Position numbers and translations under genes: made by a program. Shown here piece after piece: positions 8,734 through 44,504 of a stretch of 64,000 nt of DNA. This DNA comes from Paraescarpia echinospica (Eukaryota > Annelida > Polychaeta > Sabellida > Siboglinidae). The DNA is taken from the NCBI GenBank assembly GCA_020002185.1, contig CM034534.1, positions 66,937,821 to 67,001,820 of the forward strand, given 5' to 3'. Numbering within the stretch: the first letter of the stretch is position 1; each line of letters starts with the position of its first letter. The notes beneath the pieces were generated by a model that was not told the DNA's origin, ran no database searches, and saw only the letters and a program-made list of their open reading frames with translations.

Positions 8734-8829
8734 CTGAAACATTGAATGTCACTTGCAGTTAAAACATGGTGTGAACAGAATTGGAAGTCCTAGAGGATTG
8801 TTCCTATATAGCATTATGGTATTATGACG

Positions 8830-10440: not shown

Positions 10441-10649
10441 TTTTGCTAGGGGTGATCTTCTTCGTCGTTCACTTAAACGGAAACACTTGTCGCCCTCATG
10501 AATGATGCCATCGTCCTCAAAGCCTTGATATCACCAAATAGTTTCTCATTTAGGGTGAGGTGATCTAACCACGATGATACATCAAATGTGACACTGTAAT
10601 TCATGAACTGCTGCAAATAGTACACTTAGAAGTGGAAGACTGCGACTGG

Positions 10650-11478
10650 GAGAACTGTGTAAAGAGAGATTTGGAGAGAGTAAAGAGCAAAGTGGAGACT
10701 GAGGAGAGACAGATGGAAGTGGAGAGACTGGGAGCAAAGTGGAGACTGAGGAGAGACTGATGGAAGTGGAGAGACTGGGAGCAAAGTGGAGACTGAGGAG
10801 AGGCAGATGGAAGTGGAGAGACTGGGAACAAAATGGAGACTGAGGAGAGACAGATGGAAGTGGAGAGACTGGGAGCAAAGTGGAGACTGAGGAGAGACAG
10901 ATGGAAGTGGAGAGACTGGAAGCAAAGTGGAGACTGAGGAGAGACAGATGGAAGTGGAGAGACTGGGAGTAAAGTGGAGACTGGGGAGAGACAGATGGAA
11001 GTGGAGAGACTGGGAGCAAAGTGGAGACTGGGGAGAGACAGTTGGAAGTGGAGAGACTGGGAGCAAAGTAGAGACTGAGGAGAGACAGATGGAAGTGGAG
11101 AGACTGGAAGCAAAGTGGAGACTGAGGAGAGACAGATGGAAGTGGAGAGACTGGAAGCAAAGTGGAGACTGAGGAGAGACAGATGGAAGTGGAGACACTG
11201 GGAGCAAAATGGAGACTGAGGAGAGACAGATGGAAGTGGAGAGACTGGGAGCAAAATGGAGACTGAGGAGAGACAGATGGAAGTGGAGAGACTGGAAGCA
11301 AAGTGGAGACTGAGGAGAGACAGATGGAAGTGGAGAGACTGGAAGCAAAGTGGAGACTGAGGAGAGACAGATGGAAGTGGAGAGACTGGGAGTAAAGTGG
11401 ACTGAGGAGAGACAGGTGGAAGTGGAGAGACTGGAAGCAAAGTGGAGACTGAGGAGAGACAGATGGAAGTGGAGATGG
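10650..11478. repeat. 47-bp purine-rich minisatellite
   Basis: The unit is 47 bp (gagactgaggagagacagat + ggaagtggagagactgggag + caaagtg), about 17 copies. The plus strand is almost pure purine with G and A. The three overlapping minus-strand ORFs of Ser/Leu/Pro-rich sequence are artefacts of this strand bias. It lies in the C1-C2 intron. Confidence 0.92.
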
Positions 11479-11760
11479 GTGGTGGATTTCGATTGTACGT
11501 TTTCAGACACCTAAAATTAATTAAATTCTCAGCTGTCCTAAAATATACAGTACAAAAAATATTTTTTTATCCAAAAACATACAGTGACTAATACAAATAA
11601 TGTAAGTATTCGGATTTCGAACACCTAAAAATAATAGTGTCCGAAAATAAACAGTACAAATTAAAAAAAATTATTGTCATAGATTTTAGGGTGTCCAAAA
11701 ACATACCGGGGTAGTCATACGGAAGAAGGAAAGCAGATATTATACTTTATTATAACGTAC

Positions 11761-11954
11761 CTTCCTTTCTCTGAATCTACATTCCAATGATGGGTCATCA
11801 ACAAATGTTCCAGTGATGCGGACAGTGCTGCACGCGGTGGCGCCACTGACGGGGTCACAGGTCAGTGCTTTCGTTGGCAGAACAACCTGAGGTCGTTCAG
11901 TCTTGTTCCCGGAGCAGTCCGCACCAAACATTCCCTCCTCGCACTGGCATGTCC
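11761..11954 (-). CDS. Exon C1: second half of EGF plus first half of IPT/TIG-like domain
   Basis: A 194-nt exon, phase 1 to 0. It encodes TCQCEEGMFGADC to finish an EGF, then QVVLPTKALTCDPVSGATAC, STVRITGTFVDDPSLECRF. It is 18 nt longer than A1 and B1. Acceptor TTACTCAG, donor GTACGT. Confidence 0.9.
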
Positions 11955-12189
11955 CTGAGTAAGAACAATAACGCTATTTATGCAAGCAACAACACACACC
12001 AATATAAATAAGAAAAGGCCAAATAGATGCTGTTTGTGTCTTACGGGAAACTAGTGTATAAGCCTTTTTCAGCACACTATTAACTAAGTGAGAGAAATAT
12101 GGACTCTACAACCCAATGCCAGGACTGTGACTGAACCCAATACTATACATACCCTCTTAAACATCTGGCTGTTAGAGTCCACTTTCCAA

Positions 12190-15100
12190 CAGATAAAGCA
12201 GCAGCGGCATTCTTAGAACAATTGTAAGCGGTATTCTTAGAACAATTGTAAGCGGTATTCTTAGAACTGTAAGCGGCATTCTTAGAACAACTGTAAGCAG
12301 TATTCTTAGAACAACTGTAAGCGGCATTCTTAAAACAATTGTAAGCGGCATTCTTAGAACAATTGTAAGCGGCATTCTTAGAACAATTGTAAGCAGTATT
12401 CTTAGAACAATTGTAAGCGGCATTCTTAGAACAATTGTAAGCAGTATTCTTAGAACAATTGTAAGCGGCATTCTTAGAACAATTGTAAGCAGTATTCTTA
12501 GAACAATTGTAAGCGGCATTCTTACAACAATTGTAAGCAGTATTCTTAGAACAACTGTAAGCGGCATTCTTAGAACAACTGTAATCGGCATTCTTAGAAC
12601 AACTATAAGCGGCATTCTTAGAACAATTGTAAGCGGTATTCTTAGAACTGTAAGCGGTATTCTTAGAACAATAGTAAGCGGCATTCTTAGAACAATTGTA
12701 AGCAGCATTCTTAGAACAATTGTAAGCAGTATTCTTAGAACAATTGTAAGCGGCATTCTTAGAACAATTGTAAGCAGTATTCTTAGAACAATTGTAAGCG
12801 GCATTCTTAGAACAATTGTACGCAGTATTCTTAGAACAACTGTAAGCGGCATTCTTAGAACAATTGTAAGCAGTATTCTTAGAACAATTGTAAGCGGCAT
12901 TCTTAGAACAATTTTAAGCAGTATTCTTAGAACAACTGTAAGCGGTATTCTTAGAACAATTGTAAGCGGCATTCTTAGAACAACTGTAAGCGGCATTCTT
13001 AGAACAATTGTAAGCAGTATTCTTAGAACAATTGTAAGCAGCATTCTTAGAACAATTGTAAGCAGTATTCTTAGAACAACTGTAAGCGGCATTCTTAGAA
13101 CAACTGTAATCGGCATTCTTAGAACAACTATAAGCGGCATTCTTAGAACAATTGTAAGCGGTATTCTTAGAACAACTGTAAGCGGCATTCTTAGAACAAC
13201 TATAAGCGGCATTCTTAGAACAATTGTAAGCGGTATTCTTAGAACAACTGTAAGCGGCATTCTTAGAACAATTGTAAGCGGCATTCTTAGAACAATTGTA
13301 AGCAGTATTCTTAGAACAATTGTAAGCAGTATTCTTAGAACAACTATAAGCGGCATTCTTAGAACAACTATAAGTGGCATTCTTAGAACAATTGTAAGCA
13401 GTATTCTTAGAACAGCTGTAAGCGGCATTCTTAGAACAACTATAAGTGGCATTCTTAGAACAACTGTAAGCAGCATTCTTAGAACAACTGTAAGCAGCAT
13501 TCTTAGAACAATTGTAAGCAGTATTCTTAGAACAACTGTAAGCAGTATTCTTAGAACAATTGTAAGCAGCATTCTTAGAACAATTGTAAGCGGCATTCTT
13601 AGAACAATTGTAAGCAGTATTCTTAGAACAATTGTAAGCAGCATTCTTAGAACAATTGTAAGCAGTATTCTTAGAACAACTGTAAGCGGCATTCTTAGAA
13701 CAACTGTAAGCGACATTCTTAGAACAATTGTAAGCAGTATTCTTAGAACAATTGTAAGCGGCATTCTTAGAACAATTGTAAGCGGCATTCTTAGAACAAT
13801 TGTAAGCGGTATTCTTAGAACAACTGTAAGCGGCATTCTTAGAACAATTGTAAGCGGTATTCTTAGAACAACTGTAAGCAGTATTCTTAGAACAATTGTA
13901 AGCAGCATTCTTAGAACAATTGTAAGCGGCATTCTTTGAACAATTGTAAGCAGTATTCTTAGAACAATTGTAAGCAGTATTCTTAGAACAACTGTAAGCG
14001 GCATTCTTAGAACAATTGTAAGCAGCAATCTTAGAACAATTGTAAGCAGTATTCTTAGAACAATTGTAAGCAGCATTCTTAGAACAATTGTAAGCAGTAT
14101 TCTTAGAACAATTGTAAGCGGCATTCTTAGAACAACTGTAAGCAGTATTCTTAGAACAATTGTAAGCAGTATTCTTAGAACAATTGTAAGCGGTATTCTT
14201 AGAACAATTGTAAGCGGCATTCTTAGAACAATTGTAAGCAGTATTCTTAGAACAATTGTAAGCAGTATTCTTAGAACAATTGTAAGCAGCATTCTTAGAA
14301 CAATTGTAAGCAGTATTCTTAGAACAACTGTAAGCGGCATTCTTAGAACAATTGTAAGCGGTATTCTTAGAACAACTGTAAGCGGCATTCTTAGAACAAC
14401 TGTAAGCGGCATTCTTAGAACAATTGTAAGTGGCATTCTTAGAACAATTGTAAGCGGCATTCTTAGAACAATTGTAAGCAGTATTCTTAGAACAACTGTA
14501 AGCGGCATTCTTAGAACAATTGTAAGCGGTATTCTTAGAACAACTGTAAGCGGCATTCTTAGAACAACTGTAAGCGGCATTCTTAGAACAATTGTAAGCG
14601 GTATTCTTAGAACAACTGTAAGCGGCATTCTTAGAACAACTGTAAGCGGCATTCTTAGAACAACTGTAAGCAGCATTCTTAGAACAATTGTAAGCAGTAT
14701 TCTTAGAACAACTGTAAGCGGCATTCTTAGAACAATTGTAAGCGGTATTCTTAGAACAACTGTAAGCGGCATTCTTAGAACCACTGTAAGCGGCATTCTT
14801 AGAACAATTGTAAGCGGCATTCTTAGAACAATTGTAAGCGGCATTCTTAGAACAATTGTAAGCAGTATTCTTAGAACAACTGTAAGCGGCATTCTTAGAA
14901 CAATTGTAAGCGGTATTCTTAGAACAACTGTAAGCATTCTTAGTACAACTGTAAGCGGCATTCTTAGAACAATTGTAAGCGGTATTCTTAGAACAACTGT
15001 AAGCGGCATTCTTAGAACAACTGTAAGCGGCATTCTTAGAACAACTGTAAGCAGCATTCTTAGAACAATTGTAAGCAGTATTCTTAGAACAACTGTAAGC

Positions 15101-15430
15101 GGCATTCTTAGAACAATTGTAAGCGGTATTCTTAGAACAACTGTAAGCGGCATTCTTAGAACAACTGTAAGCGGCATTCTTAGAACAATTGTAAGCGGTA
15201 TTCTTAGAACAACTGTAAGCGGCATTCTTAGAACAACTGTAAGCGGCATTCTTAGAACAACTGTAAGCGGCATTCTTAGAACAACTGTAAGCAGCATTCT
15301 TAGAACAATTGTAAGCGGCATTCTTAGAACAACTGTAAGCGGCATTCTTAGAACAATTGTAAGCGGCATTCTTAGAACAACTGTAAGCGGCATTCTTAGA
15401 ACAACTGTAAGCAGCATTCTTAGAACAATT
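12190..15430. repeat. 24-bp minisatellite, about 135 copies
   Basis: The unit is 24 bp (tgtaagcggcattcttagaa + caat), with alternation of gcggcatt, gcagtatt, gcggtatt. It fills the PAN-C1 intron. The unit length is a multiple of eight codons, so the minus strand stays open for 1,081 codons of a repeated M/I-P/L-LT-V/I-VLR octapeptide. No start context, splice or composition evidence supports translation. Confidence 0.95.
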
Positions 15431-15489
15431 ACTTGACCACCCTATCTGCTGCCAAATACACTATCTGCTGCCAACTACACTAAATCTAA

Positions 15490-15782
15490 AATTCAGGACA
15501 AACAGGACGTTGACTCCACAACAATTTAATGAATGCCTAGCAACAAATAGGGCCTTGACTCCAAAACAACATACTCACAGCTTAGAGACAAACACGGCCT
15601 TGTCTCTCCACAACAACATAATGAATGGCTTGATTTCAAAACAACATACTCACTAACTAGTGACAAACAGGACCTTGACTCCACAACGACGTAATGAATG
15701 GGTAGAGACAAACACAGCCTTGATTTCAAAACAACATACTCACCGCCGGTGATTTCAAAACAACATACTCACCGCCAGTGAT
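15490..15782. repeat. Irregular repeat carrying copies of the PAN exon donor
   Basis: Blocks with acaaacacggccttgactcc and acaacatactcac recur about four to five times. The last two (actcac at 15738-15743 and 15767-15772) are 29 bp apart and each follows a copy of the PAN exon end. Further actcac copies lie near 15573 and 15647. Confidence 0.8.
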
Positions 15783-16024
15783 TTTGTAATCAAAATATTT
15801 CACAGTTGTGAAGCGAGATCTCCAGTAGCGAATCATCGACGCCTTCGTTGCTGTTGCTAGATGGCACCTCTTCTTTCCAGCAATGTACTCGATGGAACGA
15901 CACTCAAACTTTGTTTCTTTCTCGCAGAGATCCTTGCACGCATTTTCACTTTCACACTTATTCACGATACGGTTGTTACGGGAGATGATTCCGCCCGTAA
16001 TCCCTGCGTTCCACTTGTATGACT
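15773..16024 (-). CDS. PAN/apple-domain cassette exon inside the EGF
   Basis: A 252-nt exon, symmetrical phase 1-1, coding for 84 residues. It encodes NNRIVNKCESENACKDLCEK, then FECRSIEYIAGKKRCHLATA and FDYKITGG. The C-x3-C ... F-x-C-x-S-I-x-Y ... C-x-L pattern is that of PAN/apple domains, which bind proteins or carbohydrates. It lies between B15 (EGF cysteines 1-3) and C1 (cysteines 4-6). Module A-B has no such exon. Skipping it keeps the frame and gives an intact EGF. Confidence 0.85.
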
Positions 16025-16680
16025 CTACAATTAACATCCACAGAAACTGAAGCATTTCTCAATGCAATAAATCACAGATTCCATTGTTGTTAAAGAGATG
16101 TAGTTTGTCTACCCGGAATTAGTGGATGTATTAATTTCTAGCTGAAAGTCTGCTGTGTTGCCCGTGAGAAAATGAGCATTGTTTAACATCAAAGGGTGTA
16201 GCAGTTAACTCAGCCCAACTTGGCCGTATTGCCAAAAAAGCTAGTTTTGAAACTGGATGTTTTGTTTACTATTTGAACATGCTCCGGGGTCGTGCCTTCA
16301 AATTGCTACCATTGTTACGGGCTTACTAAACACAATTTGGCAGGCAGTATATCTTCAACATAGTTAGTAATCTTAAGACCATTATATTAATTAATACATG
16401 AAAAACTAGGAACATACTATGTCCTTTTAAAGGTAGTTTATACAATGATTGACAGCAATGATAATCACCAATTGTGTATTTTCTTTTATAAATAATCAGA
16501 GAATGAATGAGTCAAATTCACGTTGTCGTTGTATGACTTGATTAATATGCATTTACGTGCACAGCGTTTATATTTTATGTTCAATTTTTAGATAATATGG
16601 AATATGTTTTACTGTGAAATGTCAATACTAACTTGTCTCACTGACAAGCTACTTTACTGAAACCAACAATTTATAACACT
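16025..16680. other. B15-PAN intron, unique part with dispersed repeat
   Basis: No gene is seen. The segment 16290-16440 (aatttggcaggcagtatatc, ttcaacatagttagta, aagaccattatattaattaa) resembles 31625-31775, so a dispersed repeat is likely. Confidence 0.5.
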
Positions 16681-16682
16681 GA

Positions 16683-17356
16683 TGATTGACTTAACTGACA
16701 CTGACAATTCACTTGACTGAAAATTACTTGACCGACACTGACAATTTACTTGACCGACACTAATAACTTACTTGACTGACACTGACAACTTAATTGACCA
16801 ACACCGACAACTTACTGGACCGACACTGACTACTTACTTGACTGACACTGACAACTTACTTAACCGATTAAGACAACTTACTTGATTGACATCGACAACT
16901 CACTTTGACCGACACTGACAACTTACTTGACCAACACCGACAATTTACTTGATTGACACCGACAACTTACTTGACTGACACTGACAATTTACTTGACTGA
17001 CACTGACAACTTACTTGACTGACACTGACAACTTACTTGACTGACACTGACCACTTACTTGACTGACACTGACAACTTACTTGACTGATTCTGACAACTT
17101 ACTTGATTGACACCGACAACTTACTTGACCGACACTGACAGCTTACTTGACCCGACACCGACAATTTACTTGACTGACACCGACAACTTACTTGACCGAC
17201 ACCGACAGCTTACTTAACCGAAACCGACAACTTACTTGACCGACACTGACAACTTACTTGACTGACACTGACAACTTACTTGACAGATTCTGACAATTTA
17301 TTTAACTGACACCGACAACTTACTTGACTGACACTGACAACTTACTTGACTGACAC
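16683..17356. repeat. 22-bp minisatellite spanning the B15 donor
   Basis: The unit is 22 bp (gacaacttacttgactgaca + ct), about 30 copies. On the minus strand each unit reads TGTCAGTCAA-GTAAGT, which is the B15 exon end and donor. The array enters the exon by about 11 bases. Confidence 0.92.
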
Positions 17357-17529
17357 CGGCCATGTCCACTACACATAGATGGACAGAGACTTCCGTCCAC
17401 CTCAGGGTCAGGGCCTGGGATACCGTCAGGTCCTGTCTTCCAGTTGTCTGTGTCGAGCAGTGCGTGGACAGCACACTTCTGAGTGACAGCTGCCACTGCA
17501 GCCGACGCCCATGACAACAGTCCTGTCAC
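17346..17529 (-). CDS. Exon B15: linker plus first half of EGF
   Basis: A 184-nt exon, phase 0 to 1. It encodes VTGLLSWASAAVAAVTQKCA, a Gly/Pro/Asp-rich stretch, and LCPSMCSGHGRCQS, the first three EGF cysteines. It corresponds to A15. The donor GTAAGT and the last ~11 exon bases are the 22-bp repeat that continues for ~0.65 kb into the intron. Confidence 0.9.
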
Positions 17530-18300
17530 CTGTCAACAACGTCGTAGCGTGTCACTGGCGATTTTACAATACTGTAACTGGTTGACATTGACACAGTTCC
17601 AACGACTGAGACAGTGACACGTCATGACAGTTCCTACCATACAGACAGTAATGTTTTATTACACAGATACAGTGATTACCATAGACAGTGACTCTGCTTA
17701 AAACTCACTTATTTAAGCTAGCTTACTTCCACTGACGAACTGTGACGTACGACACTTTTTATGAACATGTATTTTATTAATTGATTTATTTTATTTATTT
17801 ACTTTTTATTATATAATTTCATTAATTTAAATATATAACAATTTATGTAATTATCTTAACATTTTAGAAAGTATGTCACATATTTTAATTACTTGATATA
17901 CACACTTTTTTATTTTAATATAATGTAATTTTTACCAAGATATATATATTTCATAAACATTTCTTATAATTCCATGCATGTTTTATAATGTGTGTATGCA
18001 CCTATGTACATATTGGTTCCTTGTATACAGCGCTATAGTAATGTTGGCAATAATAACAAATATGACACTACAGAGGTGGATTATGACAGTTCCTACCATA
18101 GCAAGACATGTCATGACAGTTCCTGCCATATCGACAGTGACACCGAGTTCTTTCCTGTCTCACAATACTCACCCTGTTGTGATATTTGTGCACATTTTAT
18201 CAATGCAAGGATTTATCCAAATCACAAAAATAACACTATTTTGAAATGGCCTCTACAGTTATTTCTTGTACACCAAGAAAATTTCTTGATTTAGCCTTAT
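17530..18300. other. B14-B15 intron, unique part
   Basis: An AT-rich block lies at 17755-17960. Short overlapping plus-strand ORFs at 17978-18294 show no recognisable motif. Confidence 0.5.
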
Positions 18301-18309
18301 ACAATCATC

Positions 18310-18484
18310 TGCAGTACACTCTTCCCCCAACCACACTCCCCCGACCACCCTTCTCCCGACCACCCTCGCTCGACCACCCTCCCTCGACCACCCTTCCCCC
18401 GACCACCCTCCCTCGACCACCCTTTCCCCGACCACCCTCCCTCAACCACCCTTCCCCCAACTATCCTCCCCTATCAGCCCCACT
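18310..18484. repeat. C-rich imperfect repeat
   Basis: A C/T-rich run built on cgaccaccct units with irregular spacing. It lies in the B14-B15 intron before the 38-bp array. Confidence 0.8.
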
Positions 18485-18584
18485 TTGACGCAAAATTATA
18501 TTTTTATTCTAACAAACCAAATGCCCAATCTTGTGCTTAAATGTCTAACTTGAAGTGAGTGTATTTTGTACTCCCCACTCTAAT

Positions 18585-19346
18585 AATCTCTCATCTGTAT
18601 ATCCATGATACAGCCTTACCCCACCCTCTCACATGTATATCCATGATACACCCTTACCCCACCTTCTCACCTGTACATCCATGATACACCCTTACTCCAC
18701 CCTCTCACCTGTACATCCATGATACAGCCATACCCCACCCTCTCACCTGTACATCCATGATACACCCTTACCCCACCCTCTCACCTGTATATCCATGATA
18801 CAGCCTTACCCCACCCTCTCACATGTATATTCATGATACACCCTTACCCCACCCTCTCACCTGTATATCCATGATACACCCTTACCCCACCCTCTCACCT
18901 GTATATCCATGATACACCCTTACCCCACCCTCTCACCTGTATGTCCATGATACACCCCTACCCTATCCTTCTCACCATGATACATCCCTACCCTACCCCT
19001 CTCACCTGTATATCCATGATACACCCCAACACTACCCCCCTCTTACCTGTATATCCATGACACACCCCTACCCTACCCCTCTCACCTGTATATCCATGAC
19101 ACACCCCTACCATACCCCTCTCACCTGTATATCCATGATACACCCCTACCCTACATACCTTGCACCTGTATATCCATGATACACCCCTACCCTACCCCTT
19201 CTCACCTGTATGTCCATGATACACCCCTACCCTACATCCCTCGCACCTGTATATCCATGATACACCCCTACCCTACATCCCTCGCACCTGTATATCCATG
19301 ATACACCCCTACCCTACCCCTTCTCACCTGTATGTCCATGACACAT
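18585..19346. repeat. 38-bp minisatellite spanning the B14 donor
   Basis: The unit is 38 bp (ctcacctgtatatccatgat + acacccttaccccaccct), about 20 copies. On the minus strand each unit contains ATGGATATACAG-GTGAGA, the B14 exon end and donor. The array runs into the exon by about 18 bases. Units next to the exon have cctaccctacccc instead of ccttaccccaccc. Confidence 0.93.
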
Positions 19347-19489
19347 CCCGCTAGTTCCATGTTGGCTGTGATGTTGATGAGACCTTTGCAGGTCTTTGAT
19401 GCAAGAGTTGCCGTGATCTTTGCTGTGCAGTGAGCGGTCACCTCTGCCTCAGTACGACCGTGGGCTGGCCACTTGAGGTTAGCATCGCC
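19328..19489 (-). CDS. Exon B14: linker, W-P and paired-Cys segment
   Basis: A 162-nt phase 0 exon. It encodes GDANLKWPAHGRTEAEVTAH, then CTAKITATLASKTCKG and CVMDIQ. W-P-x3-TEAEVTxxC ... C-x2-DI matches A14 (159 nt). Both ends lie in tandem arrays: 62-bp units copy its first ~20 bases with the acceptor, and 38-bp units copy its last ~18 bases with the donor. Confidence 0.88.
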
Positions 19490-22140
19490 CTAGACACAGC
19501 CAAATGTGACAATTACAAACAAAGAGAAGGTCACTTGAGGTTAGCATCGCCCTAGACACAGCCAAATGTGACTATTACAAACAAAGTGAAGGTCAATTGA
19601 GGTTAGCATCGCCCTAGACACAGCCAAATGTGACTATTACAAACAAAGAGAAGGTCACTTGAGGTTAGCATCGCCCTAGACACAGCCAAATGTGACTATT
19701 ACAAACAAAGAGAAGGTCACTTGAGGTTAGCATCGCCCTCAGACACAGCCAAATGTGACTATTACAAACAAAGAGAAGGTCACTTGAGGTTAGCATCGCC
19801 CTAGACACAGCCAAATGTGACTATTACAAACAAAGAGAAGGTCACTTGAGGTTAGCATCGCCCTAGACACAGCCAAATGTGACTATTACAAACAAAGAGA
19901 AGGTCACTTGAGGTTAGCATCGCCCTAGACACAGCCAAATGTGACTATTACAAACAAAGTGAAGGTCAATTGAGGTTAGCATCGCCCTAGACACAGCCAA
20001 ATGTGACTATTACAAACAAAGAGAAGGTCACTTGAGGTTAGCATCGCCCTAGACACAGCCAAATGTGACTATTACAAACAAAGAGAAGGTCACTTGAGGT
20101 TAGCATCGCCCTAGACACAGCCAAATGTGACTATTACAAACAAAGAGAAGGTCACTTGAGGTTAGCATCGCCCTAGACACAGCCAAATGTGACTATTACA
20201 AACAAAGAGAAGGTCACTTGAGGTTAGCATCGCCCTAGACACAGCCAAATGTGACTATTACAAACAAAGAGAAGGTCACTTGAGGTTAGCATCGCCCTAG
20301 ACACAGCCAAATGTGACTATTACAAACAAAGAGAAGGTCACTTGAGGTTAGCATCGCCCTAGACACAGCCAAATGTGACTATTACAAACAAAGAGAAGGT
20401 CACTTGAGGTTAGCATCGCCCTAGACACAGCCAAATGTGACTATTACAAACAAAGAGAAGGTCACTTGAGGTTAGCATCGCCCTCAGACACAGCCAAATG
20501 TGACTATTACAAACAAAGTGAAGGTCACTTGAGGTTAGCATCGCCCTCAGACACAGCCAAATGTGACTATTACAAACAAAGAGAAGGTCACTTGAGGTTA
20601 GCATCGCCCTAGACACAGCCAAATGTGACTATTACAAACAAAGAGAAGGTCACTTGAGGTTAGCATCGCCCTAGACACAGCCAAATGTGACTATTACAAA
20701 CAAAGAGAAGGTCACTTGAGGTTAGCATCGCCCTAGACACAGCCAAATGTGACTATTACAAACAAAGAGAAGGTCACTTGAGGTTAGCATCGCCCTAGAC
20801 ACAGCCAAATGTGACTATTACAAACAAAGAGAAGGTCACTTGAGGTTAGCATCGCCCTAGACACAGCCAAATGTGACTATTACAAACAAAGAGAAGGTCA
20901 CTTGAGGTTAGCATCGCCCTAGACACAGCCAAATGTGACTATTACAAACAAAGAGAAGGTCACTTGAGGTTAGCATCGCCCTAGACACAGCCAAATGTGA
21001 CTATTACAAACAAAGAGAAGGTCACTTGAGGTTAGCATCGCCCTAGACACAGCCAAATGTGACTATTACAAACAAAGTGAAGGTCACTTGAGGTTAGCAT
21101 CGCCCTAGACACAGCCAAATGTGACTATTACAAACAAAGAGAAGGTCACTTGAGGTTAGCATCGCCCTAGACACAGCCAAATGTGAGCGAGCTATTACAA
21201 AACAAAGAAGGATCACTTGAGGTTAAGCATCGCCCTAGATTTTACAGCCAAATGTGACTATTACAAAACAAAGGAAAGATTACTTGAGGAGGTTAGCATG
21301 CAGCCCTAGACACAGCCAGATGTGGCTAGCCACAGGCTCTAAAGAGAAGGTCACTTGAGGTTAGCATAGCCCTAGACACAGCCGAGATGTGACTATTACA
21401 AACAAAGAGAAAGGTCACTTGGTCAGCATCGCCTAGACACAGCCGAATGCTGACTATACAAACAAAGAAAGATCACTTGAGGTTAGCATCGCCCTAGACA
21501 CAGCCAAATGTGACTATTACAAACAAAGAGAAGGTCACTTGAGGTTAGCATCGCCCTAGACACAGCCAAATGTGACTATTACAAACAAAGAGAAGGTCAC
21601 TTGAGGTTAGCATCGCCCTAGACACAGCCGAATGTGACTATTACAAACAAAGAGAAGGTCACTTGAGGTTAGCATCGCCCTAGACACAGCCGAATGTGAC
21701 TATTACAAACAAAGAGAAGGTCACTTGAGGTTAGCATCGCCCTAGACACAGCCAAATGTGACTATTACAAACAAAGAGAAGGTCACTTGAGGTTAGCATC
21801 GCCCTAGACACAGCCAAATGTGACTATTACAAACAAAGAGAAGGTCACTTGAGGTTAGCATCGCCCTAGACACAGCCAAATGTGACTATTACAAACAAAG
21901 AGAAGGTCACTTGAGGTTAGCATCGCCCTAGACACAGCCAAATGTGACTATTACAAACAAAGAGGTCACTTGAGGTTAGCATCGCCCTAGACACAGCCAA
22001 ATGTGACTATTACAAACAAAGAGAAGGTCACTTGAGGTTAGCATCGCCCTAGACACAGCCAAATGTGACTATTATTTAAACCTTTTGGCCATTTGAGTTT
22101 AGCATCGCTTTAAACACAGCCAAATATGACTATTACAAAT
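19470..22140. repeat. 62-bp minisatellite spanning the B14 acceptor
   Basis: The unit is 62 bp (agacacagccaaatgtgact + attacaaacaaagagaaggt + cacttgaggttagcatcgcc + ct), about 42 copies. Each unit includes the acceptor CTAG and the first 20 bases of exon B14. Most copies are nearly identical. Units at 21183-21480 carry many small indels. A diverged last unit ends at 22140. Confidence 0.95.
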
Positions 22141-22349
22141 AATGTCTACTGCCAGTAACATTAGTAGATATTGTCAAAATAGTTGCTCAATATAAAAATC
22201 TAATCATGTCTTAGTTTAAAATACATTTATCAAATAAGTCTTGCAGCCTAAATGTATTTCCTGTACAACAAATTGTGTTCAGCCAAGTGTAATTTCAACA
22301 AATTTGGATGGTAGAATTGTAGGTTGTAAAATAATGGTATGGCCTTTTC

Positions 22350-22622
22350 CAGTAAGCAGTTACATGAGAGAGGTTCTGTGATACGTACAAACGTGCGAGT
22401 CAGGTCAATACTCATATGAGAGAGGTTATGTGATACATACGAACGTGCGAGTCGGGTCAAGTACTCGTATGAGAGAGGTTCTGTGATACGTACGAACGTG
22501 CGAGTCAGGTCAAGTACTCGTATGAGAGGTTCTGTGATACGTACGAACGTGTGAGTCAGGTCAAGTACTCGTATGAGAGAGGTTCTGTGATACGTACAAA
22601 CGTGTGAGTCAGGTCTGCCTCA
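22350..22622. repeat. 53-bp repeat spanning the B13 donor
   Basis: Five units of about 53 bp (gtatgagagaggttctgtga + tacgtacaaacgtgcgagtc + aggtcaagtactc). Each contains the B13 exon end with donor GTACGTATCACAG on the minus strand. The right-most unit is the exon itself. Confidence 0.92.
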
Positions 22623-22704
22623 TACAGTTCGTCTTGTTTAAGTGGTGTCTGGCAACCTCGGGGTGGCTTCGCTGTCTTGATCAACTCCTGGGTGATGTCT
22701 TTCA
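22598..22704 (-). CDS. Exon B13: linker with RGC motif
   Basis: A 107-nt exon, phase 1 to 0. It encodes KDITQELIKTAKPPRGCQTP and a charged tail ending LTHTF. DIT plus PP-RGC aligns with A13. The donor GTACGTA and the last ~25 exon bases recur in five 53-bp tandem units. Confidence 0.85.
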
Positions 22705-22779
22705 CTGTGTCAACAGTATATATGTACATGTATATATATATATATATATATTATTTACATAATATATATATTAATAGGG

Positions 22780-22885
22780 AAATAGAGTCTGGTCGAAAAC
22801 ACGCGTTATGAATGCATGCGTCTAGTACAGCTCCTACAGTGCTCCCATCTCGCCGCGCCTGGATAATCGAGGTTAGTGCTTCTCG
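22780..22885. repeat. Dispersed repeat with cctggataatcgagg end, copy 1
   Basis: The segment ends in gtgctcccatctcgccgcgc then ctggataatcgagg. A related one at 23100-23228 has ggttctcccatcacgcggtg then cctggataatcgaggg. These look like two diverged copies of one mobile-element family. Confidence 0.5.
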
Positions 22886-23099
22886 AGAATCCATTTTGCA
22901 TAAACTGCAAGCAGCAAATGTTTTGAGCGAGCAGCCAATCACCGTCATTATCGAGATTCTTAATCCAAAAATAAATTAGGATGTAACTTTTCTGTTTATC
23001 ACTTGTGTCAATGTAACCAATGTTTCCAATGCATAGCATAAACTTATAAGTTGATTCTTATTTAACTTTTAGTTTTATTATTAGCCTGACACCAATCAT

Positions 23100-23228
23100 C
23101 GTCTCTACCTGGATTCAGGGTAAACCGGGATCAGTGTCATACAGTGAAAACCTGTGTTATCTTCCAGGCAGTAGTACGGGAGACCTACGGTTCTCCCATC
23201 ACGCGGTGCCTGGATAATCGAGGGTAAT
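23100..23228. repeat. Dispersed repeat with cctggataatcgagg end, copy 2
   Basis: This is the second copy of the family at 22780-22885; both lie in the B12-B13 intron in the same orientation. A start like tctacctggattcagggtaa is seen only here. Confidence 0.5.
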
Positions 23229-23523
23229 ATAACATGCATTGTATGTAACGCTATATCAATGACAGTTTTCATGGCTGTAAAAAAAGTTAATACATACATA
23301 CATCCAGTAGTACAAATAAAACATTTAAATATATGAATAAATAAATAAATATATTATCTTAAAAAAACAATACTTTGTCAAGATCACAAACATGCAGCAC
23401 TATACATGTGCATATGTCATGAATTATAACCATGTGAAGATTTCTACAACCACATCACGAGAGCCACAAAATGTCTATCAACAAATGAAATAAGAAGGAT
23501 ATGTCAAAAACTGATCAACTTAC

Positions 23524-23669
23524 GTTTTCGCCGGCTGGACGAACAGGAAGTGCCATCAAGATTTGGGGCGCACCGACCTGGTGAGCCTAACTGGCACTCA
23601 CAGAAGATGGCGCCACTAGTCGCGGGGTCGGGACAGGCACCGTAGAACAACGTCTCAGTCTGGCCAACT
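23524..23669 (-). CDS. Exon B12: Cys-rich exon after vWD
   Basis: A 146-nt exon, phase 2 to 1. It encodes VGQTETLFYGACPDPATSGA, then IFCECQLGSPGRC and CSSSRRK. It corresponds to A12 (170 nt, same phases). The genomic sequence reads on as RRKR, but splicing replaces the final R with L from B13. Confidence 0.85.
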
Positions 23670-23704
23670 CTGCGACAATCAACGTTCACATATTTCACAT
23701 CTAC

Positions 23705-23899
23705 ACACACAATGGGACCTCTCAATAACGGTCACCTTGAGACTGGGTCAAGATGATCTAAATAACAAGGTGTCCGTATTAACAGGACTCACTTCCTATG
23801 CTATCTGTTACAGGAGTAATTTGGGGCTGTACTAGAGTGACCTTAATTGTGAGGTGGCTGTATTATCGAGGTGACTAAAAAAAACAAGGTTTGCCTGTA
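23705..23899 (-). mobile_element. Pogo/Tigger-like MITE, copy 4 (inverted)
   Basis: The left end (aatgggacctctcaataacg) matches the right-end form of the other copies, and the right end (caaggtttgcctgta) matches their left end in reverse complement. It contains the shared internal words ggtcacctt and ccttaattgtgaggtggctg. It is the most diverged of four copies and lies in the B11b-B12 intron. Confidence 0.7.
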
Positions 23900-24082
23900 C
23901 TATATACTGGTGAATGTCAATTCTGCTGGGTATAACACAAAATGCTGTGAAAAAAACGGTCTTGCATTAAGGAGATCCCTAATCTAAATCTCAACATTTA
24001 TTTAATTGATTTTGTGCAAAACCATTGTTAGAAAATTTCTTTTGAAGTAAATACAATTATAGTATGAGGAAAATCTGGAATC

Positions 24083-24275
24083 GTTAAGCATGATATCAAT
24101 AACGTTAAGCAGGATATCAATAACATTAAGCAGGATATCAATAACGTTAAGCATGATATCAATAACGTTAAGCATGATATCAATAACGTTAAGCATGATA
24201 TCAATAACGTTAAGCATGATATCAATAACGTTAAGCAGGATATCAATAACGTTAAGCATGATATCAATAACGTAC
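24083..24275. repeat. 21-bp minisatellite
   Basis: About nine units of 21 bp (gttaagcatgatatcaataa + c). The length is a multiple of three, so short ORFs appear on both strands. It lies in the B11b-B12 intron, 70 bases from exon B11b. Confidence 0.92.
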
Positions 24276-24342
24276 ACATGCAAAAGTCGTTGAGTGCATG
24301 CTTCAAGAACTGCTGATTGTTATGATTGTATGAAAGGTTTAC

Positions 24343-24451
24343 CTCCAACTGCCTGAGAACTGGTTTGGGAATCTTCCTGTATCTCCCGATACTCCTCCAG
24401 ACCTCATGGTCAGGTCGTTGCTGCTGTCACCGTCGTACAGACCACACAGAC
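24343..24451 (-). CDS. Exon B11b: vWD C-terminal part, second piece
   Basis: A 109-nt exon, phase 1 to 2. It encodes LCGLYDGDSSNDLTMRSGGV, then NQFSGSWR, the closing vWD signature. With B11a it totals 209 nt against 212 for A11. Its first 27 bases and its acceptor form part of the 71-bp repeat unit that fills the upstream intron. Confidence 0.88.
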
Positions 24452-25270
24452 CTACGACAGAACACACACTATCAGACGGACTCTTTCACTCATTCTGTCA
24501 CCGTCGTACAGACCACACAGACCTACGACAGAACACACACAATCAGACGGACTCTTTCACTCATTCTGTCACCATCATACAGACCACACAGACCTACGAC
24601 AGAACACACACTATCAGACGGACTCTTTCACTCATTCTGTCACCATCGTACAGACCACACAGACCTACGACAGAACACACACAATCAGACGGACTCTTTC
24701 ACTCATTCTGTCACCATCATAGAGACCACACAGACCTACGACAGAACACACATAATCAGACGGACTCTTTCACTCATTCTGTCACCATCGTACAGACCAC
24801 ACAGACCTACGACAGAACACACATAATCAGACGGACTCTTTCACTCATTCTGTCACCATCATACAGACCACACAGACCTACGACAGAACACACACAATCA
24901 GACGGACTCTTTCACTCATTCTGTCACCATCGTACAGACCACACAGACCTACGACAGAACACACACAATCAGACGGACTCTTTCACTCATTCTGTCACCA
25001 TCGTACAGATCACATAGACCTACGACAGAACACACACTATCAGACGGACTCTTTCACTCATTCTGTCACCATCGTACAGATCACATAGACCTACGACAGA
25101 ACACACACAATCAGACGGACTCTTTCACTCATTCTGTCACCATCGTACAGATCACATAGACCTACGACAGAACACACACAATCAGCAGACTCATTCTGAC
25201 ACCACTGTAGAGACCATACAGACCTACGACAGAACACTTCACTCATTCTGTCATAGAGACCACACAGACC
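24425..25270. repeat. 71-bp minisatellite spanning the B11b acceptor
   Basis: About 11.5 units of 71 bp (ctacgacagaacacacacaa + tcagacggactctttcactc + attctgtcaccatcgtacag + accacacagac). Every unit includes the acceptor (minus strand CTGTCGTAG) and about 27 bases of exon B11b, so about eleven ghost copies of the exon start lie in the intron. The 25200-25270 end is degenerate. Confidence 0.94.
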
Positions 25271-25287
25271 TATGACAGAACACACTT

Positions 25288-25460
25288 CATCAGTCTTTCC
25301 CTCTCTCTTGCCCCCCTCTCTCCACTCTCTCCCTCTCTTGTCCCCTCTCACCCTCCCTCTCTCTTTCTCCCATCTCTCTCCCCCTTTCTTTCCCCCTCTT
25401 GCCCCCTTTCTCTCGCCATCACTTTCACCCCCCCTCTTCCCCTCTCTCCCCTCTCTCACT
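25288..25460. repeat. CT-rich low-complexity tract
   Basis: A pyrimidine-rich run (ctctctccc-like) that ends about 20 bases from exon B11a. On the gene's own strand it is GA-rich, so it is not a polypyrimidine tract for splicing. Confidence 0.9.
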
Positions 25461-25482
25461 TAGACGACTAGACCTGGCTTAC

Positions 25483-25582
25483 CTTCAGTCTGCTTGTAGT
25501 CAACAGTAGATGCTGTCATTTGCACATTCAAGTAGTAGCTGATGGCTTCCACCGTAACCACGGCCCCTGTTGGCAAGTACAC
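25483..25582 (-). CDS. Exon B11a: vWD C-terminal part, first piece
   Basis: A 100-nt exon, phase 0 to 1, encoding VYLPTGAVVTVEAISYYLNV, then TASTVDYKQTE. It matches the first half of A11. The following intron interrupts the codon of the glycine in GLCG and is not present in A11. That intron contains a 71-bp tandem array. Confidence 0.88.
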
Positions 25583-25618
25583 CTGTACACAAGTAACAAC
25601 CATTGTCACATGTCAGTA

Positions 25619-25809
25619 TACAGTCAAACCCCACTTTACGGCCACCTCGGTATTACAGCCACCTCGTAATTAAGGTCACCTTAGGATAGTCCTAAATTAT
25701 TTATGTAGCAGTAAAGTATAGAAAATTAGACCCGCTAATACGGCCACCTGTCTATTCGGGTCACTTATGCCCAGTGCAGAGGCTGACCTTAATAGGGAGG
25801 TCCACTGTA
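25619..25809 (+). mobile_element. Pogo/Tigger-like MITE, copy 1
   Basis: A 191-bp element. The left end tacagtcaaaccccacttta and right end ggtccactgta form terminal inverted repeats (tacagt-g/c-aacc). It has internal gccacctcggtattacagcc and lies in the B10-B11a intron. TA ends fit the Tc1/mariner-pogo superfamily. Confidence 0.75.
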
Positions 25810-25819
25810 CTTAAACAAA

Positions 25820-26332
25820 CTGTCAGTCCAATGCATTCCCATGTGACGGTGTACACTTACAAACCATAAAAACTCACCATATTGGGCCTGAGTAGTATGT
25901 TCATTAGGAACAGATTTAAATTTGCATTATGGTTATGTTTCACTGTGAAGAAATAAATACGTATATGTAAATATATATTTAGCCATACACCTGTTTGTAT
26001 ATCAGTGTTTTATAAGTCATTCTGGAATTAAGAATAAATGGAATGATCTTCAATGGATCCAAAAGGCAAGAGTACCACACAATACAGTAATAACTAAAGT
26101 AAATAAAATAAATTAACAACTACAGTTAGTACAATTAATAAAATTGCATTTTATAAAATCATATATTTCAAATCAAATAATTAAATGAATTAAGAGTTTA
26201 ATTAATTATTAAAATAGTAGTTTTTGCAACCTAGAAAATCCCCCAACAAATTTGATACAAAAAACTGGGTCATAGTGTGTACAACAACTGGTCCTAAATA
26301 GTTAGTTCAGGAGCAAATTGGTGGAAACGTAC
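25820..26332. other. B10-B11a intron, unique AT-rich part
   Basis: No gene or array is seen. Confidence 0.6.
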
Positions 26333-26545
26333 ATCAAACTTCTTGCCACCTCGGTGCTGGACAATCTTAGTGCCCGGTGTCAACTCTCCATTGAGGTACA
26401 AGTCAATGGTGAGACCTCGCTTTGCCACCACTTTAGGTCCACCCCCATCAATCAGGATCACATCATCACCAGACTTGATCGCCACAGCCGAGTTGCAAGC
26501 GGCACCAGGGTTCCTTGGGTTACACCTTCGTTGGAATGTGTGCAC
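26333..26545 (-). CDS. Exon B10: vWD domain core
   Basis: A 213-nt phase 0 exon, same length as A10. It encodes VHTFQRRCNPRNPGAACNSA, then VAIKSGDDVILIDGGG, LYLNGELTPGTKIVQ and KKFD. SGDDVILI is the vWD core strand. Donor GTACGT. Confidence 0.93.
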
Positions 26546-26619
26546 CTAAATGAGAGCATGCACGCATGATAATAGTATATAAATAAAGTAAAAAAGGTAA
26601 GTTCTTATACAGTACAGTA

Positions 26620-26755
26620 TCCAGTCCTTAGTCTGCTCAAAGCACTCTACACTTTACTCCCTGGCAAACCTGTTCAATCGAACACCACCTCAATTTATCT
26701 GGGAAGCATTCAGCAACACTGCAGTTATGGCACAAAGACTATTCAAGTATAATAT
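26620..26755. repeat. Dispersed repeat, copy 2
   Basis: It is related to 8830-8975 through gcattcagc-acactgcagt and gcacaaagacta. It lies in the B9-B10 intron; the rest of that intron to 27216 is AT-rich without recognisable features. Confidence 0.45.
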
Positions 26756-27216
26756 TTCTATAGTGATTAGTTTTTTATTATATTATTAATTATTATTAGT
26801 TGTTTGGTATAACGTTAAGACCAGATAAAGAAAAAAAAATTAATTGGATCAATATATATATCTATATATAAATGTATGTATGCATTGTTAAAAAAATTGA
26901 ATGGCCACACTGAAACTTAATATAAATTATATATCAAACATATTTTGTTCTTATAATTTGTTTAATGCAATAAGAAACATTTCCATAAACATTGTAAAAT
27001 GGTAGATTAACATAAAACAAAGGTATCACTTTTGGTAAATAAAAAAATCACTGAATTCACATACAAACATTAAACATGCACATAACTGTAAAAAATTGGT
27101 ATAACAGCCAATGTTTTGGAATATAATTTGTTTAACCAGATAACGTTAATTATTGTTAACGTAATATATACATGCTTTTTATAGACTTAACCACAACCGA
27201 CTCCAGCATAACTTAC

Positions 27217-27280
27217 AGCATATGGCAGAGTCTTATGGCGGTAGAAAATGAATTCACCTTCCAGGAAAACATCAAACTTC
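27217..27280 (-). CDS. Exon B9: vWD domain, second exon
   Basis: A 64-nt exon, phase 2 to 0, encoding KFDVFLEGEFIFYRHKTLPY. It has the same length, phase and LEGE/YRH/LP residues as A9. Acceptor TTTTTCAG, donor GTAAGT. Confidence 0.88.
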
Positions 27281-28390
27281 CTGAAAAACACAGTGATCAC
27301 ATGAAAACATGGAATTGCAACAAAACATGATGACAAACAGCTTTCTCAGGGAATCTGAGAATACGAGTACCAAGTTTGTTTTACAAAAATTTACTTTAGT
27401 CTTCTTCATCATTTAGTCACCTGTACATAAACAATACCAACTGCCTCCAAATAATGGCTACTGCCGCTCGTGAAAAACCATGGTTTTATTCTGGACATCT
27501 CAGACTTCCAGAAATCATCCTGCATAAAAAAGTAAGCACGAGGTGCTTGCATTGTTTAATGATGAATGTTCACGTACCAGTATAACTCCCAAGACAAACA
27601 ATGCAACTGCTGTTATGTCATTACAAAACAGAAAAACTACAAAAAATTCAATGGTAAAATATGTTACATTAAAAATTATGCTGCGGATATTTATTAATTT
27701 GATTTTTTTCAGTGCAGGGCCCCCGTATACCCATAAACCACAAGCCAGTAATCACTGCACAATGTTATTACTCACTTCTTGTCAAATGAGTCAAAGTGCG
27801 GATCAGATACACCTGAACAAATGGCCAATTTGCCCTCAGAATCTTTGATATTCACCTGTTGACAAATAATTAAACATTTCATGGTGAATTGTTACATACT
27901 GTTGTAATCTTTTATAACTATAATAATGTAAATGATACTAAATCAAAGTAAACACAATAACTAATTACACATTGTAACATCTTTGTAAACCTATGTAAAT
28001 AACTGTAACAAATGTGTGTGTAGATGCAAATACAAATTTGCGGGGACCAGTAAATAAAAATTAGCTATGCATATAATTGTGTACTGTCAGTGTAAATTGA
28101 AACATAACAATGATTGATATTATTGGCACAACTGGTAGTGAAACAAATCAAATGGATCAGCATTAATGAAATAAATGATTTAAATGACACAGGCATGTCA
28201 TTGAAAAAACGCTAAACAATGGCTGTGATTGACATGAATGGCTTCCACGCACGCCGTTCGCGCGCAAAAATGCATACGTTGGAAAAATTCAAGAGCGGCA
28301 ACAAATTATTTCTGGCTAGGGGCCTGGTGTATTAATATATATGTAGGTTACAATCAGATCACCTGTGCATGAATAAGACGTAATACTGAC
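27281..28390. other. Introns around B8, no arrays
   Basis: Apart from exon B8, this is AT-rich intron. A plus-strand ORF at 27543-27848 runs antisense across B8 and has no recognisable motif. Confidence 0.6.
27776..27855 (-). CDS. Exon B8: start of vWD domain
   Basis: An 80-nt exon, phase 0 to 2, encoding VNIKDSEGKLAICSGVSDPH, then FDSFDKK. It is the counterpart of A8 with the vWD DPH signature. Acceptor CAACAG, donor GTGAGT. Confidence 0.9.
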
Positions 28391-28801
28391 CGTGGCAGTC
28401 ACCAGCTGTTTCTCGTACTTGAGCTCCTGTGCGACGTAGTGGCGCTGGAACAGCCTGAGGGTTCTCACAACCGACCTACTCTCTCGCCTCATGTCCACCT
28501 TCGCATGCACCGGGATCCTCAGGGTCTCCCCTAACCCCTTCACCGTGATCGGGACCCCGCAGAACGCCCCAACAGCTGCGCCCTCCCAGCCAAGCACCCC
28601 TTGAGGGAGCTTGTACTTTGTGTCGTCGCTGTGGCAGGTAAAGTCGGACTTCGACGGGGTGAAGTACCCCTCGACCCTAACGTCGCAGTCAGGGCCCAGG
28701 TCACTCAGGGAGCAGAGGAGGGAAGGGGGCAGACCGGAGTAGACGGAGATGTAGCGGGGGTCACCACCCTCTCTCACGGTGAACTCTGACTCGGTGATCA
28801 C
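28391..28801 (-). CDS. Exon B7: EGG-type beta domain before vWD
   Basis: A 411-nt phase 0 exon corresponding to A7. It encodes VITESEFTVREGGDPRYISV, GLPPSLLC, CDVRVEGYFTPSKSDFTCHS, AFCGVPITVKG, LRIPVHAKVDMRRESR and LVTATV. The EGG-x3-Y-x-V start is clearer than in A7. This exon is strikingly GC-rich against its AT-rich introns. The donor is GTCAGT. Confidence 0.9.
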
Positions 28802-28990
28802 CTGAATGCAGAAGTAACAGGGTTTGTTTGGGGGAATTCTGAGACAGTCTCAAGCAACCAATCAGTCATGATCCTGAATCGCCTGAGAGATAAGCTGAAC
28901 TTTAGCAACTCATGTGGTGTCATCAATATTGTGTTTCGTGACGTTTTAAAGCGTGTGTTTTTTCTGTACACTAGGGGTATTTGTTGTATG

Positions 28991-29788
28991 CAGACCTGCC
29001 TACCCCAAAAACTTCCTGTTAGTAATCCATGCTCCCATTTACACTGATTTTCAGGAATATAGGCTTCCTGTCAGTAATTGTTCAGAACCATGTCAGATAT
29101 TGTCACGGGGGGGTAGGGACGGCAAAACCATTATGTTACGCTAGTCATCGACATCGCCTAGACTCTAGTGACAGTGACTAGTCTACTCAACTCTAGTATA
29201 TAAGCCTATCCCTGTATTATAGGCTGTAAATGATAGACGGGGGGGGGGTAGGGAGGGCAAAACCATTACGTTACGCTAGTCATCAACATCGCCTAGACTC
29301 TGTCTCTAGTGACTGTATGATAGGCTGTAAATGATAGACTAAACTCAATAAATACACTAACTTAGTCTTAGTACAGTCAGTTGGCCTAACACTACAAGTA
29401 CAACACTCACAAAATTTTTGCATTACACGTTTATTTTTGGTTGGCGGTGGCGTCGTTTCGCTGTCAGGAAGCTGGAAGCTCGACATCATTGCCCTATTTC
29501 GTGCCGCGTGACTTCATTTTGTTTGATCGCGGAAATGTGAATTTGTCATAACGCTGTTTCCTATTGGTTAGATTACGACCAGAGTCAGCGAATGAAAAAC
29601 CATGTCACAACATGCTGCATACATATGCTGCCACCTGTTGAATATAGTGGAACCTAAATTTGAGGAGCACGGAAGTGATTGGCGAACATGGTGACAGTCC
29701 GTAATATTTTCATCCCTCGCCGTAATACCGTAATTTGAGGTGACTTTCCGGAATGATTCCGGACAATCCGGAATGGTAGGCAGGTCTG
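28991..29788. mobile_element. Non-autonomous DNA element with 14-bp TIR
   Basis: The left end cagacctgcctacc and right end ggtaggcaggtctg are perfect inverted repeats. The flanking hexamer tgtatg is present on both sides, an apparent 6-bp target-site duplication. Inside, a ~95-130-bp segment is duplicated in tandem (29105-29237 and 29243-29335: gggtagggacggcaaaacca, cgctagtcatc, cgcctagactc). No transposase ORF is visible. It lies in the B6-B7 intron. The superfamily is undetermined; 6-bp duplications are reported for IS3EU and Dada types. Confidence 0.75.
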
Positions 29789-29885
29789 TGTATGGCTAAA
29801 TAGTGGAAGTTTTTCAGTTACAGCAGTTTGAAAACATACCTGAGTGCATTTTAGGAGTGCATTTGGGGGGTTGGGTTGGGCTTAA

Positions 29886-31425
29886 CTATGGTAGTAACAA
29901 TGGCAGTAACAATGGTAGTAACAATGGTAGTAACAATGGTAGTAACTATGGTAGTAACAATGGTAGTAACAATGGCAGTAACAATGGTAGCAACAATGGT
30001 AGTAACTATGGTAGTAACTATGGTAGTAACAATGGCAGTAACAATGGCAGTAACAATGGTAGTAACTATGGTTGTAACAATGGTAGTAACAATGGTAGTA
30101 ACAATGGTAGCAACAATGGTAGCAACAATGGTAGTAACTATGGTAGTAACAATGGCAGTAACAATGGCAGTAACAATGGTAGTAACTATGGTAGTAACAA
30201 TGGTAGTATCAATGGCAGTAACAATGGTAGTAACAACGGTAGTAACAACGGTAGTAACAATGGTAGTAACAATGGTAGTAACAATGGCAGTAACAATGGC
30301 AGTAACAATGGTAGTAACAATAGCAGTAACAATGGCAGTAACAATGGCAGTAACTATGGTAGTAACTATGGTAATAACAATGGTAGTAACAATGGTAGTA
30401 ACAATAGCAGTAACAATGATAATAACTATGGTAGTAACAATGGCAGTAACAATGGTAGCAACAATGGTAGTAACTATGGTACTAACAATGGTAGTAACAA
30501 TGGCAGTAACAATGGTAGTAACTATGGTAGTAACAATGGTAGTAACTATGGTAGTAACAACGGTAGTAACAACGGTAGTAACAATGGTAGTAACAACGGT
30601 AGTAACTATGGTAGTAACAATGGCAGTAGCAATGGTAGTAACAATGGCAGTAACAATGGTAGTAACTATGGTAGTAACAATGGCAGTAACAATGGTAGCA
30701 ACAATGGTAGTAACTATGGCAGTAACAATGGCAGTAACAATGGCAGTAACAATGGTAGTAACTATGTTAGTAACAATGGTAGTAACAATGGCAGTAACAA
30801 TGGTAGCAACAATGGTAGTAACTATGGTAGTAACAACGGTATTAACAATGGTAGTAACAATGGTAGTAACAATGGCAGTAACAATGGTAGTAACAATGGT
30901 AGTAACAATGGCAGTAACAATGGTAGTAACAATGGTAGTAACAATGGTAGTAACAATGGCAGTAACTATGGTAGTAACTATGGTAGTAACAATGGTAGTA
31001 ACAATAGCAGTAACAATGGTAATAACTATGGTAGTAACAATGGTAGTAACAATGGCAGTAACAATGGCAGTAACAATGGCAGTAACAATGGTAGTAGCTA
31101 TGGTAGTAACAATGGTAGTAACAATGGTAGTAACAATGGCAGTAACTATGGTAGTAACTATGGTAGTAACAATGGTAGTAACAATAGCAGTAACAATGGT
31201 AATAACTATGGTAGTAACAATGGTAGTAACAATGGCAGTAACAATGGTAGTAACAATGGTAGTAACAATAGCAGTAACAATGGCAGTAACAATGGTAGTA
31301 ACTATGGTAGTAACAATGGTAGTAACAATGGCAGTAACAATGGTAGCAACAATGGTAGTAACTATGGTAGTAACAACGGTAGTAACAACGGTAGTAAGAA
31401 TGGCAGTAACAATGGTAGTAACAAT
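29886..31425. repeat. 12-bp minisatellite, about 128 copies
   Basis: The unit is ggtagtaacaat with ggcagtaacaat, ggtagtaactat and ggtagtaacaac variants. The unit length is a multiple of three, so two plus-strand frames stay open for over 500 codons (a GSNN repeat and an MVVT repeat). It lies in the B6-B7 intron, antisense to the gene, and is not coding. Confidence 0.95.
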
Positions 31426-31440
31426 GACATCAAGTATTAA

Positions 31441-31775: not shown

Positions 31776-31779
31776 CTAC

Positions 31780-35865: not shown

Positions 35866-35878
35866 AGTGTGTGTGTGT

Positions 35879-35938
<60 letters not shown>

Positions 35939-44500: not shown

Positions 44501-44504
44501 AATA

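Follow-up and report, generated by a model that had tools for sequence, protein, structure and literature searches.

In amphioxus, minisatellites known as mirages have been described in Adh, the globin genes BflGb6/BflGb9, TnC and PGBD5; according to the available parts of these accounts, their units span an exon-intron boundary, either at the donor or at the acceptor, many copies retain the AG or GT signal, and the units are locus-specific. Excerpts of two of the papers give unit lengths of 10-72 bp in Adh3 and 150-160 bp in BflGb6 (PMC3087553), and of 60 and 108 bp in PGBD5, with TnC and Adh cited alongside (PMC3902484). Partial texts of further papers report an intronic minisatellite in abalone (PMC6905558) and, for genes with tandem repeats, splice sites that are dual-specific (PMC10809524). 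Investigating a stretch of 64,000 nucleotides (the window in the following; contig CM034534.1, positions 66,937,821-67,001,820) within the 1.08-Gb genome of the annelid Paraescarpia echinospica, we observed arrays that resemble these mirages at splice junctions of a giant gene on the minus strand, on which all features of the gene given below lie. This gene is putatively of the VWDE type, in which one protein combines VWD, LamG and EGF modules, and is called VWDE-like here; it is modelled with 34 exons (7805..63948) in blocks A, B and C, carrying EGF/TIG-like, LamG, VWD and PAN modules. In line with an annelid source, PF16915 (Eryth_link_C), the linker domain of annelid erythrocruorins, has 6 matches in the genome (best E 6e-22) and none in 14 control genomes, a weak control, the one identified among them being bacterial; fourteen contigs of 56-97 Mb suggest 14 chromosomes, and n = 14 is the number of nereid worms.

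Arrays across splice junctions of the VWDE-like gene

Searched with Tandem Repeats Finder (TRF; period at least 10, score threshold 50), the window contains 32 merged arrays amounting to 24.8 kb, and eight of the 32 hold one of the 68 junctions of the 34 exons, the unit carrying the splice site together with 11-46 exonic bases. A sequence-only reading of the window had named six of these junctions between the exons B11b and PAN, and all six indeed lie in TRF arrays with the units it gave, each including the splice site and 11-28 exonic bases: the B11b acceptor (24451, array 24424..25196; 71-bp unit, 10.9 copies, 28 exonic bases), the B13 donor (22598, array 22364..22615; 53-bp unit, 4.8 copies, 18 exonic bases), whose signal TTT/GTACGT is weak, both junctions of B14, the B15 donor (17346, array 16676..17356; 22-bp unit, about 31 copies, 11 exonic bases) and the donor of the PAN exon (15773, array 15721-15784; 29-bp unit, 2.2 copies, 12 exonic bases, CTGGCG/GTGAGT). 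Exon B14 (162 bp, 19328..19489), a paralogue of A13 (38171-38013) placed by tblastn, phase and open frame, is an extreme case: its acceptor is present in about 43 copies (acceptor 19489, array 19470..22139; 62-bp unit, 20 exonic bases) and its donor in about 20 (donor 19328, array 18588..19349; 38-bp unit, 22 exonic bases). Beyond the PAN donor array, the intron carries related repeats of 45/75 bp, the PAN-associated arrays together spanning 15498..15784 and the exon itself 16024-15773.

The same reading had added the A1 donor, the B3 acceptor and a B6 donor. The first lies in an array of seven 77-bp units with 46 exonic bases (63773, array 63284..63818), the donor being identical in 7/7 copies; at the B3 acceptor there are about two copies (34625, duplication 34593..34667; 35-bp unit, 2.1 copies, 33 exonic bases); the B6 donor, which is the B5b donor of our model (32151), is a two-copy 37-bp duplication (32107..32173) below the TRF threshold. 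A TRF array at 31772-31934 was considered for this last junction and rejected, being intronic. The proposed total of at least nine of about 72 junctions accordingly stands at 8 of 68 in TRF arrays and reaches nine only with the two-copy case. Several arrays end short of a junction by less than 50 bp (among them those at the A3 acceptor and in L049 and L057).

A unit spanning the exon-intron boundary, as in the amphioxus mirages, is thus found in eight TRF arrays of the window, and equally in two arrays of its flanks and four of other genes (see below). The AG or GT signal is retained in 110 of the 116 copies read in the nine window cases, among them 28/30 copies of the B15 donor and 18/19 of the B14 donor for GT, and 35/38 copies of the B14 acceptor and 10/10 of the B11b acceptor for AG. 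Strong donors (score at least 8.5) occur in 4 of 11 mirage units, in none of the 63 other arrays of the gene and in none of 39 arrays from random regions, which are too few for this annotation-free scan to give a rate.

Exons were called by translation in all frames, by matching exons between the repeated blocks (tblastn) and by choosing splice sites on phase and signal, so that the predicted borders are supported by paralogy between blocks, by splice phase and by frames that stay open. Joined, the 14 exons of block A yield 994 amino acids and the 16 exons of block B up to B15 yield 995, both free of stops, and seven of the nine array-borne junctions sit within these reads. The spliced proteins contain the whole VWD domain, put together across exons (profile positions 1-155 of 156); PF00094 and PF13385 score above the cut-off in blocks A and B, the EGF match (PF07974) below it, LamG domains are detected, and the PAN exon, whose acceptor at 16024 is placed by phase alone, contains the PAN domain PF00024. 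Block A yielded no counterpart of B5b, and the model of block C ends with C3; a LamG-like frame follows beyond C3 at 7107-6679. A search for protein homologues returned one metagenomic protein, uninformative on the exon borders. The blocks extend beyond both ends of the window, paralogous blocks lying on one strand across more than 160 kb, and a single gene as well as several in a row are both possible.

Some observations on the gene stand apart from the arrays. On its own, one LamG exon (54891-54277) barely attains the cut-off of PF07953 (Toxin_R_bind_N), and the spliced protein fails to do so; this probably reflects a shared lectin fold rather than a toxin. Block Y has its LamG exon in two parts (157256-156750 and 156262-156155; here and below, coordinates marked as enlarged are window coordinates plus 50,000, as these are). 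A stretch of about 400 bp is repeated at 53.5-53.9 kb and 62.85-63.26 kb of the window, one copy entering the start of exon A5, the acceptor of which may be derived from an element. A retroelement of the non-LTR type, with an endonuclease (PF03372) and a reverse transcriptase (PF00078), occupies 48698-52005 on the plus strand, within an intron and antisense to the gene.

Junction counts in the window, its flanks and other genes

The excess of junctions in arrays within the window is real and unexplained, and its size depends on the null chosen. Under a seed model, which places duplications one unit long at uniform density and tolerates those that cross a single junction, 1.46 crossing arrays are expected versus the eight observed (P 0.0001). 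Shuffling whole arrays, with the depth of exon entry capped at a set number of exonic bases, gives means of 2.3, 2.9 and 8.1 at up to 35, 50 and 150 bases (p 0.0005, 0.0075 and 0.61); donor ends were one base off in this run, which changed the array status of no junction, the count being eight either way. For the gene and its surroundings, 164 kb in all, where ten junctions in arrays are observed, the means are 3.8, 5.0, 10.5 and 20.3 at 35, 50 and 100 bases and without limit, and ten was reached in 7, 85, 1944 and 3000 of 3000 shuffles, respectively. The sequence-only reading had picked out the densest 10 kb of one window, and the p-value of the window is consequently ascertained. Counted by array ends facing exons, eight lie across junctions in the window versus 2, 4, 0, 2, 3 and 3 per 50-bp intron bin.

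Enrichment elsewhere in the gene had been set as a test of that reading, and the 100 kb flanking the window provide none: 2 of 66 junctions lie in arrays versus 1.57 expected by the seed model (P 0.46), so that the excess is confined to the window. Array ends facing exons count two across junctions versus 3, 5, 5, 0, 1 and 4 per intron bin, and array ends are about equally dense just inside and just outside the exon. The flank arrays number 48 or 50, depending on merging. Seven tblastn rows were dropped here (enlarged coordinates 133940, 47503, 42918, 42096, 41421, 41196 and 19403), of which the last four lie within arrays, were flagged by script as array-borne junctions and were taken as chance repeat matches; two weak rows were retained for their position in the exon order, 154751 (E 0.01) and 142714 (E 0.04). 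In a further 40 kb upstream, where the E limit for rows was 0.005 and a single row beyond it, of the exon-11 type (705-586, E 0.1), was retained for its position, none of the resulting 19 junctions lies in an array, which says little, since arrays make up only 3.0 kb (7%) of this stretch.

Arrays are as abundant elsewhere in the genome. Ten random 10-kb regions contain 35.6 kb of tandem arrays (period at least 10) in 100 kb, with 0-10 kb each, versus 58.7 of the 164 kb that comprise the gene and its surroundings; two of the random regions (L022 and L024) consist almost entirely of one minisatellite, with units of 106 and 38 bp. Control genes were located in the genome with Pfam profiles, and 59 exons with 118 ends were taken from 24 of 57 VWD, 28 of 76 myosin and 7 of 128 kinesin places listed, hand-picked before their letters were seen. 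Four of the 118 ends lie in mirages (VWD 1/48, myosin 3/56, kinesin 0/14): the donor of a VWD exon (L035, 63-bp unit), a myosin acceptor (L071, 20-bp unit), a myosin donor (L074, 25- or 44-bp unit) and the donor of the myosin P-loop exon (L079, 52-bp unit), all four of them read in the sequence itself. The unit of this last mirage (L079, 6-170) includes telomere-like CCCTAA repeats. The TRF threshold was 30 here, not 50, yet all four score above 50; a predicted L032 donor, within a 12-bp array scoring 33, was left out of the count. Splice sites were picked mechanically by script, some of them wrongly (for example, the L071 donor), and overlaps in the VWD set were judged by eye. Altogether, 6 of 203 junctions outside the window (about 3%) lie in arrays.

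Origin of the arrays

The units speak for separate births, as the sequence-only reading had claimed: they differ, and the ten same-gene mirage units (eight of the window, two of the flanks) show no similarity to each other and no recurrence in the other DNA compared. The 62-bp unit of the B14 acceptor, the only one searched genome-wide, matched its own array only, in a search that skipped very common words. Of the junctions paralogous to these ten that could be placed in other blocks, none lies in an array, so that each array was either born after the blocks or lost elsewhere.

We consider it probable that the arrays are mirage minisatellites, born frequently and without preference for junctions, and tolerated where they fall on one. 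A local duplication of about 20-85 bp would straddle an exon-intron border by chance and then expand, presumably by replication slippage or unequal exchange, minisatellite birth being frequent and widespread in the genome irrespective of junctions. Such a duplication across one junction would leave exon, splice site and intron intact on the exon side, the extra copies becoming intron, and owing to this intact copy, which probably is the one spliced, it would be tolerated; a duplication wholly within an exon mostly would break the frame, and exon-breaking arrays would be removed by selection. Junctions, then, would neither attract nor forbid array birth, and the dense run at 15.5-25.3 kb would be the upper tail of a uniform process. 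Array birth irrespective of junctions is favoured by the private units, by the array-free paralogous junctions and by the unremarkable conservation of the splice core within the units (see below). A process seeding duplications at the exon borders of this locus, as the sequence-only reading had suggested, is not supported by the flanks, and comparison with the equally array-rich random regions and with unrelated genes, which also contain junction-crossing arrays, gave no sign that the locus is special.

Several findings weigh against the explanation by undirected birth. Besides the departure from the seed model in the window, the proportion of junctions in arrays differs between the window and the outside (8/68 versus 6/201, Fisher p 0.009; the 201 comprise 66 + 19 + 116 and become 203 when the VWD set is recounted as 24 exons). 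In all but one of 14 mirages (taking the 25-bp rather than the 44-bp unit for L074), exonic bases make up a fraction of 0.28-0.60 of the unit, the mean distance of this share from 0.5 being 0.13 (p 0.0008, post hoc; Kolmogorov-Smirnov p 0.07), and uniform seeding predicts no such centring. Gapped alignments put the splice core slightly above the average conservation of its unit for 6 of 7 arrays. The donors of B15 and PAN are supported by signal and phase common to other blocks only, and the control exons are few, with borders placed by script.

The excess and the centring would fit if co-transcriptional structures, R-loops, nucleosome edges or recombination at borders seeded duplications at junctions, more strongly in some genes or blocks than in others. 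Eight of 32 window arrays crossing a junction argue for this; the flanks, however, show no excess and the centring was spotted post hoc, and we regard such a directed process as unlikely. A related reading, in which junctions are the preferred birthplaces in this genome, the duplicated segment is centred on the splice site as if set by a lesion linked to transcription or splicing, and the rate changes strongly along a gene with block B as a hot spot, seems to us slightly less likely still. Selection could alternatively keep the arrays because many equivalent sites buffer or tune splicing, and the retained AG and GT signals, the copies on both sides of exon B14 and the splice core, better conserved than the rest of the unit in 8 of 9 ungapped comparisons, would fit such a function. 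Against it, none of the seven gapped alignments (that of the B14 acceptor being poor in its intron part) ranks the core in the top 5% of windows by conservation, and selection on the copies is therefore not established; the next copy outward adds a length not divisible by three in 8 of 9 arrays, and in 5 of 9 a stop codon already falls in the first copy added; and no placeable paralogous junction has an array. Together, this makes a splicing function very unlikely.

Errors of assembly or misplaced exons might in principle produce the pattern, as long arrays are difficult to assemble, but it recurs at ten junctions of the gene and at four exons on three other contigs (C1, C2 and C12), short arrays are affected too (L035 and L079), and frames remain open across seven of the nine array-borne window junctions; we deem this a very improbable source, even more so than a splicing function. 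The arrays could also mark newborn introns, arisen by tandem duplication of an AG/GT proto-splice site as proposed for amphioxus globins, and the intron between B11a and B11b appeared suitable, being absent from A10 and having its acceptor within an array. The same exon split is present in the upstream blocks Y, Z and X, however, so that A10 most likely lost the intron, and gain by tandem duplication was rejected for this position; the introns of B13, B14 and B15 are present in block A as well. The introns checked predate their arrays and no gain was found, which contradicts this origin for them and leaves it hardly credible in general. Exons 8 and 9 follow each other directly in upstream block Z (TLPYA-VHTFQ; L014, enlarged coordinates 127767-127491), likely a second intron loss. 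The frequent, undirected birth of arrays that are tolerated at junctions remains the explanation we prefer.

Comparison with known systems

Minisatellites at exon-intron boundaries that are able to alter splicing are also known from human genes in segmental duplications (PMC2812944). As far as the accessible part of that study goes, the human cases are recent paralogues that average about four copies of a 30-bp unit and often show alternative transcripts and novel introns, whereas the annelid arrays sit at old introns and often have many copies. The gain of introns through tandem duplication of AG/GT (PMC4974935, in the portion available) shares with our arrays that the duplicated DNA carries splice signals, but differs in that the introns checked here are older than the arrays. 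Among annelids, minisatellite arrays occur in introns of earthworm metallothionein genes (PMC12783039), where they are described in the first intron; spanning of a junction is not mentioned in the sections of that paper at hand. No report of annelid mirages was present among the matches listed in our searches, which span part of the literature.

The closest known counterparts of the arrays described here are the mirages of amphioxus, a cephalochordate, reported from single genes and, in the available parts of the papers, with RT-PCR and length instability. The annelid case is read from genome sequence alone and differs by arrays of up to about 43 copies, by several affected junctions of one gene together with unrelated genes, and by a rate given with a null model. 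If about 3% of the junctions in an annelid genome lie in arrays, they would offer natural tests by the thousand, both of spliceosome choice between many near-identical sites and of intron growth. Going by the excerpts available, mirages have so far been described from a handful of amphioxus genes; here, they are found in several unrelated genes of an annelid.

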